Positions 3,406-17,454 of a stretch of 49,058 bases of DNA are shown here, in pieces. This DNA is from a virus. The stretch covers positions 1-49,058 of the IMG/VR virus record IMGVR_UViG_3300032309_000169. One strand, written 5' to 3'. The position numbers and the translations under genes were made by a program. Each line of letters opens with the position of its first letter. Position 1 is the first letter of the stretch. A model generated the notes under the pieces. It was not told the origin of the DNA, did not search any database, and saw nothing but the letters and a program-made list of their open reading frames with translations.

Positions 3406-3438
3406 ATACATAACAAGATATCCTAAAGGAGGATACTA

Positions 3439-3678
3439 ATGGAATCATTACTAAATAAGAAAGTATTAGAGTCTGCTCTAAACGCTTTCGTAATTGCACT
3501 AGTTACACAATTTGTGGACTCAGGTGCAGATGTTTCTGCTTTATCAGGAGATGCCCTAGGCACAATCCTAAATTCAGCAGTTGCAGCAGCAGCATGGGTT
3601 GTAATCCGTGCAGTAAATCCAAGAGATACCAAATTCGGTATTGGTGCGGTAGCAGTAAAGGCTTCCAAAAAGAAATAA
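3439..3678 (+). CDS. putative holin
   Basis: This 79-residue protein has two hydrophobic segments, about residues 11-27 (ALNAFVIALVTQFV) and 44-60 (LNSAVAAAAWVVIRAV), separated by an acidic turn (DSGADVSALSGD), and a basic tail ending KASKKK. Size, two candidate membrane spans and a charged C terminus fit small phage holins, resembling the r1t-type holins of phages of Gram-positive hosts. In that role it would open the cytoplasmic membrane to time lysis. It is preceded by a very strong Shine-Dalgarno, transcribed from its own promoter and closed by an intrinsic terminator. A lytic transglycosylase gene lies 1.7 kb downstream on the other strand. Another small membrane protein role cannot be excluded. 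Confidence 0.65.
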   Translation: MESLLNKKVLESALNAFVIALVTQFVDSGADVSALSGDALGTILNSAVAAAAWVVIRAVNPRDTKFGIGAVAVKASKKK

Positions 3679-3692
3679 GTCCTGATACAATT

Positions 3693-3726
3693 GAGGGGGT
3701 AGTTTAAATACTGCTCCCTCTTTTTA
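3693..3726 (+). terminator. intrinsic terminator after holin gene
   Basis: An 11-pair stem GAGGGGGTAGT / ACTGCTCCCTC (two G-T wobbles) with loop TTAAAT is followed directly by TTTTTAT. It lies 15 bases after the holin stop and should end the holin transcript. Confidence 0.88.
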
Positions 3727-3739
3727 TAGAAAGTAGATA

Positions 3740-4828
3740 ATGGCAAAACCAACAATATCGTTCTTGACCTATGATTGGTCTTTTGGAACTCAACCTCTTC
3801 AACCTAATGGGTGTGCTTGGTATAGATGCTATCTACCAATGCAACAATTAAAAAAAGATAAATATGAAACAGGAATGGGTTTTCCTGGTTTTAATGATGA
3901 TCATGGTTTTGGTATTTTAATTCCTGACAATAAAGCAATACATGGTTGGGATATAGTTGTTTTAAAACTTATTATGATTGACAGGGTAGTAGAACAAGTA
4001 GATAAAGCATTAGCAATGGGACAAAAGATAGTAGTTGATTTAGATGACCATATGGAAGGTCTTGCTAAAACAAATCTTGCTCATACTATGACTAGTCCTG
4101 AAAAGAATCCTAAAAATAATAGAGATCATTATTTAAAGATTATTGAAAAGGCTACAGCGTTAATTACTTCTACCCCTTTCTTAAAAGAGTTTTATGAAAA
4201 GAAACATCCTGGTAAACCAATATACCTAGTTCGTAACGGTATTGATTTAGATAGATGGAAGATAAGAAATGATCATTCTGGACACCTTCCAACTTATGGT
4301 TGGGTTGGTGCAACTCCGTGGCGTAGTAATGACTTAGAGATTTTAAATCCATTGTTTGGACAATTTATAAAAGATAGGCATGTTAAATTTCATCATTCTG
4401 GAAGCATTGTAAATGCACCAAAAGTATCTGATCAAATAGGAATAGATCCTTCTCTTTTTAGCCATGAACCAATGAAACCAATTATGACTTATCCAGAAAT
4501 GTTTAGAAAGATAGATGTTGGTATTGTTCCATTAAACAATGTAGAGTTTAATGACGCTAAGTCTTTTGTTAAAGGTTTAGAGTATGCTGCTGCGGGAATT
4601 CCTTTCATAGCAAGCCCATCTCCAGAGTACAGTTACTTTGCAGAAAAAGGGGTAGGAAGAATAGCCAATACTCAAGAAGAGTGGGTATCTCATGCTGAAG
4701 AACTATTAGATCCAAAGGTAAGAAAAGAAGAAAGACTTAGAAATAGACAAATAGTTAAAGAACAATTTAGTATGGAACAAAGAGGACTTGACTGGGAAGA
4801 AGTCTTTGATAAAATTCTTGCGTTATAA
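3740..4828 (+). CDS. glycosyltransferase, GT-B fold (GT4-like)
   Basis: This 362-residue protein has the layout of a GT-B glycosyltransferase. The N-terminal Rossmann half contains IVVDLDDHMEGL (97-108). The linker NGIDLDRW (166-173) is typical of GT4 enzymes. The C-terminal donor-binding half contains YGWVGATPW (186-194), DVGIVPL (259-265) and KSFVKGLEYAAAGIPFIAS (274-292), the usual nucleotide-sugar site with acidic residues near 269 and 281. It would transfer a sugar from a nucleotide-sugar donor; the acceptor is unknown. Because it sits among appendage and lysis genes, glycosylation of phage virion proteins is the leading idea; modification of the host surface or of DNA is possible. No signal peptide is seen. 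It follows the holin terminator. Confidence 0.8.
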   Translation: MAKPTISFLTYDWSFGTQPLQPNGCAWYRCYLPMQQLKKDKYETGMGFPGFNDDHGFGILIPDNKAIHGWDIVVLKLIMIDRVVEQVDKALAMGQKIVVDLDDHMEGLAKTNLAHTMTSPEKNPKNNRDHYLKIIEKATALITSTPFLKEFYEKKHPGKPIYLVRNGIDLDRWKIRNDHSGHLPTYGWVGATPWRSNDLEILNPLFGQFIKDRHVKFHHSGSIVNAPKVSDQIGIDPSLFSHEPMKPIMTYPEMFRKIDVGIVPLNNVEFNDAKSFVKGLEYAAAGIPFIASPSPEYSYFAEKGVGRIANTQEEWVSHAEELLDPKVRKEERLRNRQIVKEQFSMEQRGLDWEEVFDKILAL

Positions 4829-13903: not shown

Positions 13904-15298
13904 ATGACTAACATGCATAAAGCATTTTGGCACTCAGAAAAAGACAACATTACGTTGTCTATGCCAATTGCAAAAGTAGACAAAGAACGCAGAATCGTTT
14001 CAGGTTTTGCAACACTTGATAATGTCGACAAACAAGCAGACATTGTGCCAACAGACGTTAGCCTAAAAGCCTTTGAACGCTTTCGTGGCAATTTAAGAGA
14101 AATGCACATGCCAATTGCAGTAGGCAAGGTTGTGTCTTTCAAATCAGATCAATTTTATAACAAAGAAGAAGAAAAATTTTACAATGGAGTATACGTAGAT
14201 GCATACATTTCTAAAGGTGCTCAAGATACTTGGGAAAAAGTTCTTGATGGTACTCTTACTGGTTTTTCTATTGGTGGCAGTATCAATGATTCAGACAAAG
14301 CGTACAACTCCGAAATGGATAAAGAGATTCGTGTTATTAAAGACTATGACCTCCATGAACTCTCATTAGTAGATAATCCTGCTAATCAATTTGCAAATAT
14401 TCTTTCAATTCAAAAAGCCTCAAATGGTATAAATACTGTTGAAGGTATGATCACAAAAACATTATTTGAAAATGTTTACTGGTCAAAAGAATATCAAACA
14501 ATTAGACTTTCAAAAGAAGAAGATCCTCGTAATGATGAAGCCTGGGTTGGTTTCGTAGAATCAAACGATGTAGATAAGGTTTCTGTGATAAAAGGTTTAC
14601 TTAAGTCACAGGACACAGAACTTGGACAAAAATCCAAGACTGATCAAATTAATGAAGGAGGGAAGAATATGGCAAAAAAAGAACAAGTTGAAGCAACAGA
14701 AGTTGTTGCAGAAACAAAAGTAGAAAAAACTGTAAATACAGAAAGTGAGACTGTCGTTGTAGACGAAATTGTAAAGTCTGATAGTCCAGAAGAAACACCT
14801 GCTGAAGAAGCACCTGCTGCTGAAGAAGCACCTGCTGCTGAAGAAGCACCTGCTGCTGAAGAAGCACCTGCTGCTGAAGAAGCACCTGCTGCTGAAGAAG
14901 CAAAAGAAGTTTCTGAAGAAGTTGTTAAATCTGAAAATACAGAAGCCACTCCTGCACAAGAAGTTGCACAAGTTGACTTAGCAAAGGCTGTTGAAACAGT
15001 ACAAGCGTCTGTTAACGAAGTTAGCAAGTCCGTTGTAGCAGCAGTAGAAGAATTAGCAGCAGCCGTTAAATCAATTAACGACAAAGTTGCTGAAATGACA
15101 AAAGGCATTGAATCAGTTAAAGAGGAAGTTACTGGTGTAAAAAACAATGTTGAAGAGTTTGGAAAGCGTGTCGATGCAGTAGAAGATGACACAGCGGTCC
15201 GTAAATCTGGCGACCTCGGCGGGGTCGTACAGCAAAAAATACAAAAAAGGTCGATGTGGGGCGGGCGTTTCCTCAATTCCGCTGATCTATATCGTTAA
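13904..15298 (+). CDS. prohead maturation protease fused to scaffold
   Basis: This 464-residue protein has two parts. Residues about 15-180 match XkdF-like prohead serine proteases: IVSGFATLDNVDKQADIV, REMHMPIAVGK (His68), LTGFSIGGS (Ser122 is the likely nucleophile) and YDLHELSLVDNPA. The C-terminal part (about 255-464) is an acidic, repeat-bearing and coiled-coil scaffold: five EEAPAA repeats (301-330), then long heptad-like helices (VAAAVEELAAAVKSINDKVAE and so on). The protease cleaves scaffold and capsid proteins during head maturation; the scaffold directs shell assembly. An internal start at 14669 probably makes the scaffold alone. It sits between portal and major capsid genes. Confidence 0.85.
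   Translation: MTNMHKAFWHSEKDNITLSMPIAKVDKERRIVSGFATLDNVDKQADIVPTDVSLKAFERFRGNLREMHMPIAVGKVVSFKSDQFYNKEEEKFYNGVYVDAYISKGAQDTWEKVLDGTLTGFSIGGSINDSDKAYNSEMDKEIRVIKDYDLHELSLVDNPANQFANILSIQKASNGINTVEGMITKTLFENVYWSKEYQTIRLSKEEDPRNDEAWVGFVESNDVDKVSVIKGLLKSQDTELGQKSKTDQINEGGKNMAKKEQVEATEVVAETKVEKTVNTESETVVVDEIVKSDSPEETPAEEAPAAEEAPAAEEAPAAEEAPAAEEAPAAEEAKEVSEEVVKSENTEATPAQEVAQVDLAKAVETVQASVNEVSKSVVAAVEELAAAVKSINDKVAEMTKGIESVKEEVTGVKNNVEEFGKRVDAVEDDTAVRKSGDLGGVVQQKIQKRSMWGGRFLNSADLYR
14669..15298 (+). CDS. nested in-frame scaffold protein from internal start
   Basis: Inside the protease gene, in the same frame, an ATG at 14669 is preceded by AAGGAGGG (14655-14662) with six bases of spacing. This is a stronger ribosome site than that of the long gene itself. 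It would give a 209-residue protein beginning MAKKEQVEA, containing the EEAPAA repeats and the coiled coil but not the protease. In-frame scaffold genes nested in a protease gene are established in phage lambda (Nu3 within C). The need for many scaffold copies per protease explains the arrangement. The expression itself is inferred. Confidence 0.72.
   Translation: MAKKEQVEATEVVAETKVEKTVNTESETVVVDEIVKSDSPEETPAEEAPAAEEAPAAEEAPAAEEAPAAEEAPAAEEAKEVSEEVVKSENTEATPAQEVAQVDLAKAVETVQASVNEVSKSVVAAVEELAAAVKSINDKVAEMTKGIESVKEEVTGVKNNVEEFGKRVDAVEDDTAVRKSGDLGGVVQQKIQKRSMWGGRFLNSADLYR
14804..14893 (+). repeat. five 18-base tandem repeats encoding EEAPAA
   Basis: The unit GAAGAAGCACCTGCTGCT is repeated five times without a mismatch (14804-14893), flanked by partial copies. 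It encodes an acidic Pro/Ala-rich flexible linker between protease and coiled-coil scaffold. The DNA identity between units points to recent slippage expansion, so copy number may vary among relatives. Confidence 0.95.
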
Positions 15299-15321: not shown

Positions 15322-16305
15322 ATGTCAGAAGAAATTTTAAATAAGGCGGCTGTAACAGGAGTTATTGCTTCAGGAGGTATTGGTGGTGTTAGCACCCCAG
15401 CATCAGAACTTGGACCAGTAGGAACCGCAAAACCAGCAGATGGTGGAGGTATCTTAAATCCAGAACAGTCACGCCAATTTATCGAATACATCTTTGAACA
15501 ACAAGTTCTTGCTCGTGATGGTCGCCGTGTAACAATGCGTGGCAACACAGCAGAATTAGAAAAGATGAACGTTGGAGAACGTGTAATCCGTGCTGCTGCT
15601 CAAGCAGATGCGGCATACACAAATGCTGGAGTTACTTTCACAAAAGTCGAAATTACTACAAAGAAAGTTCGTCTTGATTGGGAAGTATCAACCGAAGCAC
15701 TAGAAGATAATATCGAAGGTGCAGCATTAGAAGATCACTTAGTTCGTACAATGACTCGTGCATTTGCAAACGATCTTGAAGATCTTGCAATCAACGGCAC
15801 AGGCTCAGGCACAAATACATTCCTTAACATTTTGGAAGGTTTTGTTGTTAAAGAACAAAGAGGTAATCGTGCAACTTATGGAACACGTATTGAAGACTTA
15901 CAAGCACTTGTGCTTGCAATGCCACGTAAATACCGTGCTTCTCGTTCAGCAATGAAGTTCTATGCTGATACCGAAACAGTAGCAGACATCATTAATGGTC
16001 TTGGTTCAAATGGTAACTTAAACACTGAAAGAATCGTAGAACGTGTTATCGATGGTGCAGCACCTCAAACAATTGGTGCTCCAATTCAATACCGTGTTCT
16101 TGGTCTTCCATTAGTTGAAGTTCCATTGATGCCAACAGGATTCGTGTCATTGACATTCCCAGAAAACCGTATTTGGGGATTCCAAAGAGACGTTACTGTT
16201 CATCGTGAATTCCAACCTAAGAAAGATACAGTAGAATATACTACTTTCTTACGTTTTGGTGCTCAAGTTGAAGAAGATGACGCAATTGCTTACATGAAGC
16301 AATAG
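15322..16305 (+). CDS. major capsid protein
   Basis: This 327-residue protein follows portal and protease/scaffold and is bracketed by a strong Shine-Dalgarno (GGGAGGTG) and a terminator. Its layout fits an HK97-type capsid: a flexible N-terminal arm (about 1-55), then RRVTMRGNTAELEKMNVGERV. TTKKVRLDWEVSTEALEDNIEG (about 113-135) reads as the spine-helix/E-loop region, followed by a long ALEDHLVRTMTRAFANDLEDLAINGTG helix region and a C-terminal IWGFQRDVTVHREFQPKKD strand typical of these proteins. Arginine codons are mostly CGT/CGC, unlike the AGA-rich neighbours, as expected for a highly made protein. It should form the icosahedral shell. Confidence 0.88.
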   Translation: MSEEILNKAAVTGVIASGGIGGVSTPASELGPVGTAKPADGGGILNPEQSRQFIEYIFEQQVLARDGRRVTMRGNTAELEKMNVGERVIRAAAQADAAYTNAGVTFTKVEITTKKVRLDWEVSTEALEDNIEGAALEDHLVRTMTRAFANDLEDLAINGTGSGTNTFLNILEGFVVKEQRGNRATYGTRIEDLQALVLAMPRKYRASRSAMKFYADTETVADIINGLGSNGNLNTERIVERVIDGAAPQTIGAPIQYRVLGLPLVEVPLMPTGFVSLTFPENRIWGFQRDVTVHREFQPKKDTVEYTTFLRFGAQVEEDDAIAYMKQ

Positions 16306-16323: not shown

Positions 16324-16366
16324 GAAGGGGGGACACGTAAAAATGTCCTCCCTTCAACTATTTTAT
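16324..16366 (+). terminator. intrinsic terminator after major capsid gene
   Basis: A 12-pair stem GAAGGGGGGACA / TGTCCTCCCTTC (one G-T pair) with loop CGTAAAAA lies 18 bases after the capsid stop, followed by AACTATTTTAT. The T-run is imperfect but the stem is strong. Confidence 0.8.
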
Positions 16367-16369
16367 AAA

Positions 16370-16378
16370 TGATATAAT
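16370..16378 (+). promoter_or_regulatory. extended -10 promoter for the connector genes
   Basis: TGATATAAT directly follows the capsid terminator and precedes the GGAGG ribosome site of the gene at 16395. No good -35 is seen. It would restart transcription for the head-tail connector operon. Confidence 0.55.
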
Positions 16379-16394
16379 AAACTTGGAGGATATT

Positions 16395-16580
16395 ATGTAC
16401 GAATCTAATAATAAAATTGCTTTATATGTTGAAAATGCAAGTGTTACTGATAAAGAATTAGGAAAGTTAATTCGTGGATATAATATCGTTTCAGAAGAAG
16501 TTGCAAATAAATGGGTAGATAAAAACATGAACATTAGAATTGCTACCCCACAGGAGGTAGCCGCCGCTTACGGCGTATAA
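16395..16580 (+). CDS. small hypothetical head-region protein
   Basis: This 61-residue protein (MYESNNKIAL...) has no recognised family. Its C-terminal half, with the segments ANKWVDKNMNIRIATPQE and VAAAYGV, looks like a short compact alpha/beta fold. The ATG at 16395 is chosen because GGAGG lies five bases upstream; a TTG at 16383 would lie before that site. It is placed between the major capsid gene and the first connector, where small head-decoration or connector-linked proteins often lie. Its last codons carry the Shine-Dalgarno and hairpin that control the next gene. Confidence 0.6.
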   Translation: MYESNNKIALYVENASVTDKELGKLIRGYNIVSEEVANKWVDKNMNIRIATPQEVAAAYGV

Positions 16581-16581
16581 T
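16552..16581 (+). promoter_or_regulatory. ribosome site split by a hairpin (SD-hairpin-ATG)
   Basis: A perfect AGGAGGT (16552-16558) lies 23 bases before the ATG at 16582, normally too far. Between them a GC hairpin CGCCG-CTTA-CGGCG (16562-16566 with 16571-16575) can fold. This leaves three plus six unpaired bases, a normal nine-base spacing. The same trick is known from phage T4 genes such as 25 and 38. No other Shine-Dalgarno is present for this gene. Confidence 0.65.
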
Positions 16582-17454
16582 ATGGAAATATTAAGACACA
16601 CAGACACAACAAGTTTAGTAGCAAGTTTTCAAGTTTCATCAAGTTCAGTTCATACATTAGAGTATGAAGACCTAATTACAGGACAATCTTATTCGGCATC
16701 AGCAACTCCATTATTTGGATCAGTTTCATTTACCTTAAATAGTAGATATTTAACATATACAGGAAACTTATCAGCCTCTGTTAAAAAATCAAATGGGGAT
16801 GTTGTTGTATTAACCAACATAGATGTAGTTAGACCATATTGCAATACAGACAACGTAGCCGCAGCATTAGACATAACTGACGGTAGCGAATTAGACTATG
16901 AAAGAATAGCAAGATATATCATAGACGCTCAAACACAAGGATTTCCTTTTGTAAGAAAAGAAAAAGAAGTAGTTGGTAATGGATCAGACTATCTACCAGT
17001 TGATGAAAAGATTTATAAAATTTACAAGGTTTATCAAAATGGATATTTGTTGTTTGATTCAACATCTCAAACAAATGAAGTAAATTTCTTGATAAGCAAA
17101 GATGGGACATCCATTATCTCAATAGATCCAGAAGTACCAGAGAATAAGATTAATTACAAACAAGTATGGAGAGAAAGATACTTAGATGCAGATTTTAACG
17201 AAGGATCAGAGTACATAATTGATGGAGATTTTGGTTGGAAGGTTATCCCTCAAGATGTGCAGGAAGCGTCAGAACTATTAATTCAAGACATGAAAAACAA
17301 TACTCTTCAATATGTTAATAGATACATAGAGTCATTTGACAACGATGATTATAAGATTAAGTTTGCTAAGGGTGCTTTAACAAATACAGGCAATGTTATA
17401 GTAGATAAAATCTTGGAGAAATACAGAAATAGAATTCGCCTCGGGGTGTTGTAA
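16582..17454 (+). CDS. head-tail connector (adaptor) protein
   Basis: This 290-residue protein has an N-terminal beta-rich domain (about 1-85: SLVASFQVSSSSVHTLEYEDL, SVSFTLNSRYLTYTG), not usual for simple adaptors. A region follows (about 95-290) with the mixed helix/strand layout of HK97 gp6-like connectors: NVAAALDITDGSELDYERIARYII, then the IYKIYKVYQNGYLLFD strand pair and a C-terminal helix bundle. It probably docks onto the portal ring. It lies first in a run of four neck genes in canonical order. Translation seems to use the hairpin-spaced ribosome site at 16552. Confidence 0.65.
   Translation: MEILRHTDTTSLVASFQVSSSSVHTLEYEDLITGQSYSASATPLFGSVSFTLNSRYLTYTGNLSASVKKSNGDVVVLTNIDVVRPYCNTDNVAAALDITDGSELDYERIARYIIDAQTQGFPFVRKEKEVVGNGSDYLPVDEKIYKIYKVYQNGYLLFDSTSQTNEVNFLISKDGTSIISIDPEVPENKINYKQVWRERYLDADFNEGSEYIIDGDFGWKVIPQDVQEASELLIQDMKNNTLQYVNRYIESFDNDDYKIKFAKGALTNTGNVIVDKILEKYRNRIRLGVL

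Follow-up and report, generated by a model that had tools for sequence, protein, structure and literature searches.

Bacteriophage T4 offers the closest described counterparts of the start site analysed here. At the 26-25 junction of that phage, the Shine-Dalgarno (SD) sequence of gene 25 lies 27 nt from the AUG and a hairpin cuts this distance to 11, an arrangement worked out by Nivinskas (1999) and by Malys and Nivinskas (2009) and reviewed in PMC3014915; it is backed by reporter and DMS evidence, and one phage group has retained the element, which more distant relatives lack. For T4 gene 38 a hairpin reduces the spacing from 22 nt to 5, and the portion of PMC3014915 that treats this site contains no comparative series comparable to the present one. 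In the split ribosome-binding site (RBS) of E. coli thrS, the ribosome accommodates a hairpin without unfolding it (PMC3936740). A search of the open-access literature turned up no further phage case of a hairpin-accommodated SD.

To our knowledge, there are very few cases of such sites. A second arrangement that bears on the present locus is the coupling junction of the TAATG or TAA-N-ATG type, in which stop and start are adjacent or overlapping and the SD lies inside the upstream ORF. The locus resembles T4 gene 25 in its over-distant strong SD, its intervening hairpin, its position at a gene junction and its restriction to one phage group, and differs in the gene and phage lineage concerned, in an all-coding element with a stop beside the AUG, in the presence of two stem registers and an SD predicted to pair upstream, and in being known from sequence alone. 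With gene 38 it shares the shortening of SD spacing by a hairpin, in a different gene and a different sequence. Unlike thrS, with its large regulated 5′ UTR domain, it has, within an ORF, a 14–15-nt hairpin that separates a perfect SD from the AUG, and unlike the coupling junctions it has its SD 23–24 nt away with a conserved hairpin between.

The stretch of DNA analysed, hereafter the window, comprises 49,058 nt (positions 1–49,058 of IMG/VR virus record IMGVR_UViG_3300032309_000169), and the junction strand, read directly from it, is CCCCACAGGAGGTAGCCGCCGCTTACGGCGTATAATATGG (Table 1). The distant SD and the hairpin between it and the start codon (h2) are real: the preliminary description had placed AGGAGGT 23 bases before ATG 16582, or nine with the 14-nt hairpin folded out, and its coordinates and spacing were reproduced exactly. 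It had also called the hairpin a GC-rich exception, and h2 is indeed both the local GC maximum and the sole perfect all-GC 5-bp hairpin (loop 3–8) in the 49,058 bases. The AGGAGGT motif as such is not rare, with four copies in the window against 4.6 expected. The remaining strong SDs of the window mostly lie 3–13 nt before their starts, an upper limit that is partly by design because the survey was aimed mainly at spacings of 3–14. An Rfam search of the element gave no match above threshold. The earlier statement that there is no alternative ribosome site holds in so far as no SD nearer to ATG 16582 than AGGAGGT was found in the junction, but it ignored termination-reinitiation from an overlapping upstream ORF. 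Both the SD and h2 sit wholly inside the coding sequence of a 61-aa ORF that had been missed, which has its own SD (GGAGG, 16385–16389) and whose protein ends in ATPQEVAAAYGV; with a single base between its stop and the ATG, initiation without AGGAGGT is conceivable.

Table 1. Features around the start of the adaptor gene (positions in the window).
Feature	Position	Strand	Remarks
Terminator-like hairpin behind the major capsid gene	16324..16355	+	12 pairs, 7 GC, T-rich tail
Promoter-like TTATAAATGATATAAT	16363..16378	+	Most relatives keep the motif, small ORF present or absent
Small ORF, 61 aa, MYESNN...IATPQEVAAAYGV, then stop	16395..16580	+	Homologs L082–L161, alignment A2
Predicted SD-pairing stem h1, GCUACC/GGUAGC	16542..16561 (16542–16547/16556–16561)	+	Folding prediction, isolated RNA
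Shine-Dalgarno AGGAGGT	16552..16558	+	Codons CAG GAG GTA of the small ORF
Spacer hairpin h2, CGCCG-CUUA-CGGCG	16562..16575	+	Predicted −8.0 kcal/mol; arms CGCCG 16562–16566 and CGGCG 16571–16575, loop CTTA 16567–16570
Small-ORF stop TAA	16578..16580	+	1 nt ahead of the adaptor ATG
Head-to-tail adaptor gene, 290 aa	16582..17454	+	Start backed by MEIL/MEVL homologs

It seems likely to us that in this family of uncultured phages the adaptor gene has an accommodated, or split, RBS within the last codons of the upstream ORF, probably combined with translational coupling. The locus has three features of such a site, namely a distant strong SD with none closer, a hairpin lying wholly between SD and start, and compensating changes in relatives. 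The 30S subunit would pair with AGGAGGU, h2 would form in the interval separating the SD duplex from the start codon, reducing the spacing from 23–24 to about 9–12 nt, and the shortened spacing would let AUG 16582 reach the P site. Ribosomes finishing the small ORF would stop 0–2 nt before this AUG or overlapping it, and their passage may open h1, freeing the SD. Formation of h2 in the cell, its use by the ribosome and the coupling step are what we infer. Several considerations count against bridging: the nearness of stop and start could by itself lead to reinitiation, and this SD and hairpin are dispensed with in outgroups as well as in L162, L163 and L172; translation of the small ORF requires the ribosome to melt h2; and the SD itself is predicted to be paired, so h1 may mask it.

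Relatives were gathered as IMG/VR loci from adaptor and small-ORF searches, and the ingroup consists of clade A (the window and L001–L013) and its sister clade E (L026, L056, L070 and others), both of which keep the small ORF. AGGAGGT lies 23–24 nt from the ATG in 40/40 distinct ingroup sequences, and a foldable hairpin is present in all 40 distinct relatives that have the small ORF and a strong SD, with a folded spacing of 9 nt in the window and 9–12 nt among relatives. The clades differ in stem register and loop (5 bp with CUUA in A, 6 bp with a 3-nt loop in E) and are alike in folded spacing. The E-clade stems include GCCGAA/UUCGGU, GCUGAA/UUCGGC, GCUGAA/UUCAGC and GCCGUA/UACGGC, while the loop varies freely; 100% of cells are paired, two of the six pairs are changed on both sides (C-G/U-A and A-U/U-A), and the covariation score is reached by 3 of 500 shuffles. 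Clade A contributes a two-sided change from C-G to A-U, a covariation of one event only, in L006, where CGCCG/CGGCG has become AGCCG/CGGCU (GCC to GCA, plus Val to Leu); in L013 of the same clade the outer pair is lost to an A.G mismatch. Some amino-acid changes also leave pairs intact: E to V together with F to Y in L070/L117, and G to S in L098/L099. The covariation check suggested for the stem has thus yielded compensating changes at two pairs in E and one in A, and the relatives support selection on the hairpin. As for the original likening to T4 genes 25 and 38, it is partly supported, by these changes and by a stem kept beyond codon chance; it took account of neither the overlapping ORF in which the element is embedded nor the SD-pairing h1, and to that extent is incomplete.

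The strongest competing explanation, which we nevertheless regard as unlikely, is plain termination-reinitiation at the adjacent AUG, with the distant SD merely holding ribosomes and the hairpin arising as a by-product of peptide and codons. Stop and start are 0–2 nt apart or overlap throughout (in A, TAA precedes ATG by 1–2 nt; in E the junction is TAATG), outgroups with the same layout have neither SD nor hairpin, and the C-terminal peptide favours pairing; the peptides AAAYG and AExFG do so through the structure of their codons, which gives part of the pairing for free. How much is free can be gauged by synonymous recoding of the peptides of the ingroup, with codons drawn at the frequencies of the phages themselves (GCC 7–9%, GGC 10–12%, TAC and TTC 23–30%). 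For the window spacer, at −8.0 kcal/mol, 0 of 2000 same-peptide recodings fold as well (P < 0.0005), and a by-product origin of h2 is rejected there on this test; P is 0.001–0.007 for other A members, L117 and L098/L099, and 0.021–0.035 for the remaining E variants. Fisher combination for A, E and L070 gives about 3e-6 if these are independent, and since synonymous sites of the adaptor gene are near saturation (differences between representatives of 0.26–0.54, vs 0.46–0.48 at saturation), the main lineages are nearly independent of one another. Recoding yields AGGAGG in only 1.5–5% of draws, whereas 40 of 40 observed ingroup small ORFs have it. Over the last 11 small-ORF codons, synonymous divergence falls in the E clade (0.056 vs 0.248) and does not fall in the outgroup (0.326 vs 0.373), and permutation of synonymous columns in the E clade is significant for the codons of the SD, alone or combined with the stem. 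For the stem by itself the permutation result is weak (P = 0.03 in E relative to non-SD columns; not significant in A, a shallow clade where it is uninformative). A DNA pattern scan that required neither AGGAGG nor stem returned 48 copies that had both and 3 that had neither. Reinitiation with an incidental hairpin is thus opposed by the recoding nulls, by stem changes on both sides that include pair-keeping amino-acid changes, by the near-saturated adaptor sites, and by the fact that AGGAGG and hairpin occur or vanish together.

A less probable alternative still is a coupling switch in which h1 pairs the SD and keeps the adaptor RBS shut except when the small ORF is being translated, and in which h2 mainly shapes or stacks on h1 instead of bridging. 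The two stems do adjoin directly, h1 predicted at −8.6 and h2 at −8.0, and the 81-nt region is predicted to fold at −20.4 kcal/mol (z −4.26), as well as which none of 200 shuffles folds. Folding predictions pair the SD within h1 in the A clade, where h1 is invariant and exceeds codon chance (P 0.003–0.024), and leave it partly free in several E members. In the E clade, however, the codon-chance test places h1 within chance, and TCC variants, L109 and L140 among them, have a broken h1 but keep h2. That the hairpin serves ribosome slowing near the small-ORF stop, mRNA protection or frameshifting is very improbable, for although a stable stem does stand immediately ahead of the stop codon, neither a slippery site nor a terminator U-tract was seen at the junction, and the hairpin goes with the strong SD and does not occur in phages that lack the small ORF.

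The history of the accommodated RBS can be approached through the outgroups (L143–L161, L259–L292), in which the small-ORF homolog ends in ATPEEVAKEFGK or similar, with the codons GAA GAA GTT; those with such an end have no AGGAGG and no h2 hairpin, with the same stop-start layout, and folding at the junction is mostly weak or none (0 to −4.0). This SD and hairpin are likewise missing from L162, L163 and L172. Judging from these homologs, the C-terminal peptide is conserved for its own sake. Stop-start coupling, on which the accommodated SD would be overlaid, is probably ancestral. In clades B1 and B2 the small ORF is absent and TAAGGAGG or AGAGG stands at normal spacing, right after the promoter-like motif; the small ORF was not found elsewhere in B-type records of up to 66 kb, which are possibly fragments. 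The adaptor tree, some deep branches of which are only moderately supported, places the outgroups first, followed by L143, E, and then B2 with (A, B1), so that B1 and B2 sit on separate branches; because the outgroups have the small ORF, two losses would be the simplest reading.

Taken in this comparative setting, the element is real, conserved and beyond codon chance, and would be a new independent case of the rare T4 gene 25/38 class, its function being judged from sequence comparison. It is quite possible, and we propose it tentatively, that the conserved C-terminal end (ATP[QE]EVA..[FY]G) of a small protein from the virion region has been made by codon choice into a complete ribosome entry module for the next gene, with SD and length-compensating hairpin, that works with stop-start coupling, can be re-registered, and yields to a normal SD upon loss of the small ORF. 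The locus provides a natural comparative series: two registers, two-sided changes, outgroups in which neither this SD nor this hairpin occurs, and two clades that have no small ORF and whose SD is normal. The series is an argument that ribosomes are able to use hairpin-accommodated SDs in unrelated phages, and it shows that protein-coding sequence can carry such an element; gene finders that score SD spacing linearly will misjudge hairpin-bridged starts.

The small ORF lies between the major capsid gene (15322–16305, PF05065) and the adaptor gene, homologs of which are annotated as head-to-tail adaptor in Streptomyces phages at about 27% identity. Its protein has no match in Pfam or NCBIfam and only weak matches in PHROG (phrog_9487, function unknown), and a search of cellular genomes for a host found no relative. 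The terminator-like hairpin behind the capsid gene is the one found against 0.2 expected, and TTATAAATGATATAAT occurs as a single exact copy in the window; phages of A, E, B1 and most of B2 (e.g., L014, L026, L053) have it between the capsid gene and the one that follows, and it is promoter-like, perhaps a phage-specific or late promoter.

Several smaller observations were made along the way. The outgroup phages L154 (−6.2) and L157 have a different hairpin, CCAAAAGGCUUUUGG, at the end of the small-ORF homolog just before the stop, with no strong SD upstream. L145–L161 and L259–L292 have AAGGA in Lys-Glu codons about 15–16 nt before the next start, possibly a weaker SD that the ingroup lost as K-E became E-V or A-A. 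The Streptomyces phages Riptide and Wofford (L031 2900–3001, L032 2760–2857) have a terminator-like hairpin and a TATAAT box directly before the adaptor ATG, which suggests a leaderless or near-leaderless adaptor mRNA. In L026 an HNH-endonuclease-like ORF, recognized by eye (3430–3774; C..C...LDVDHIDGN...N..LC.NCH), lies between the capsid gene and the small ORF. Tandem EEAPAAEEAPAAEEAPAA repeats occur at 14640–14970 of the window, within the presumed capsid protease/scaffold protein (13904–15298).
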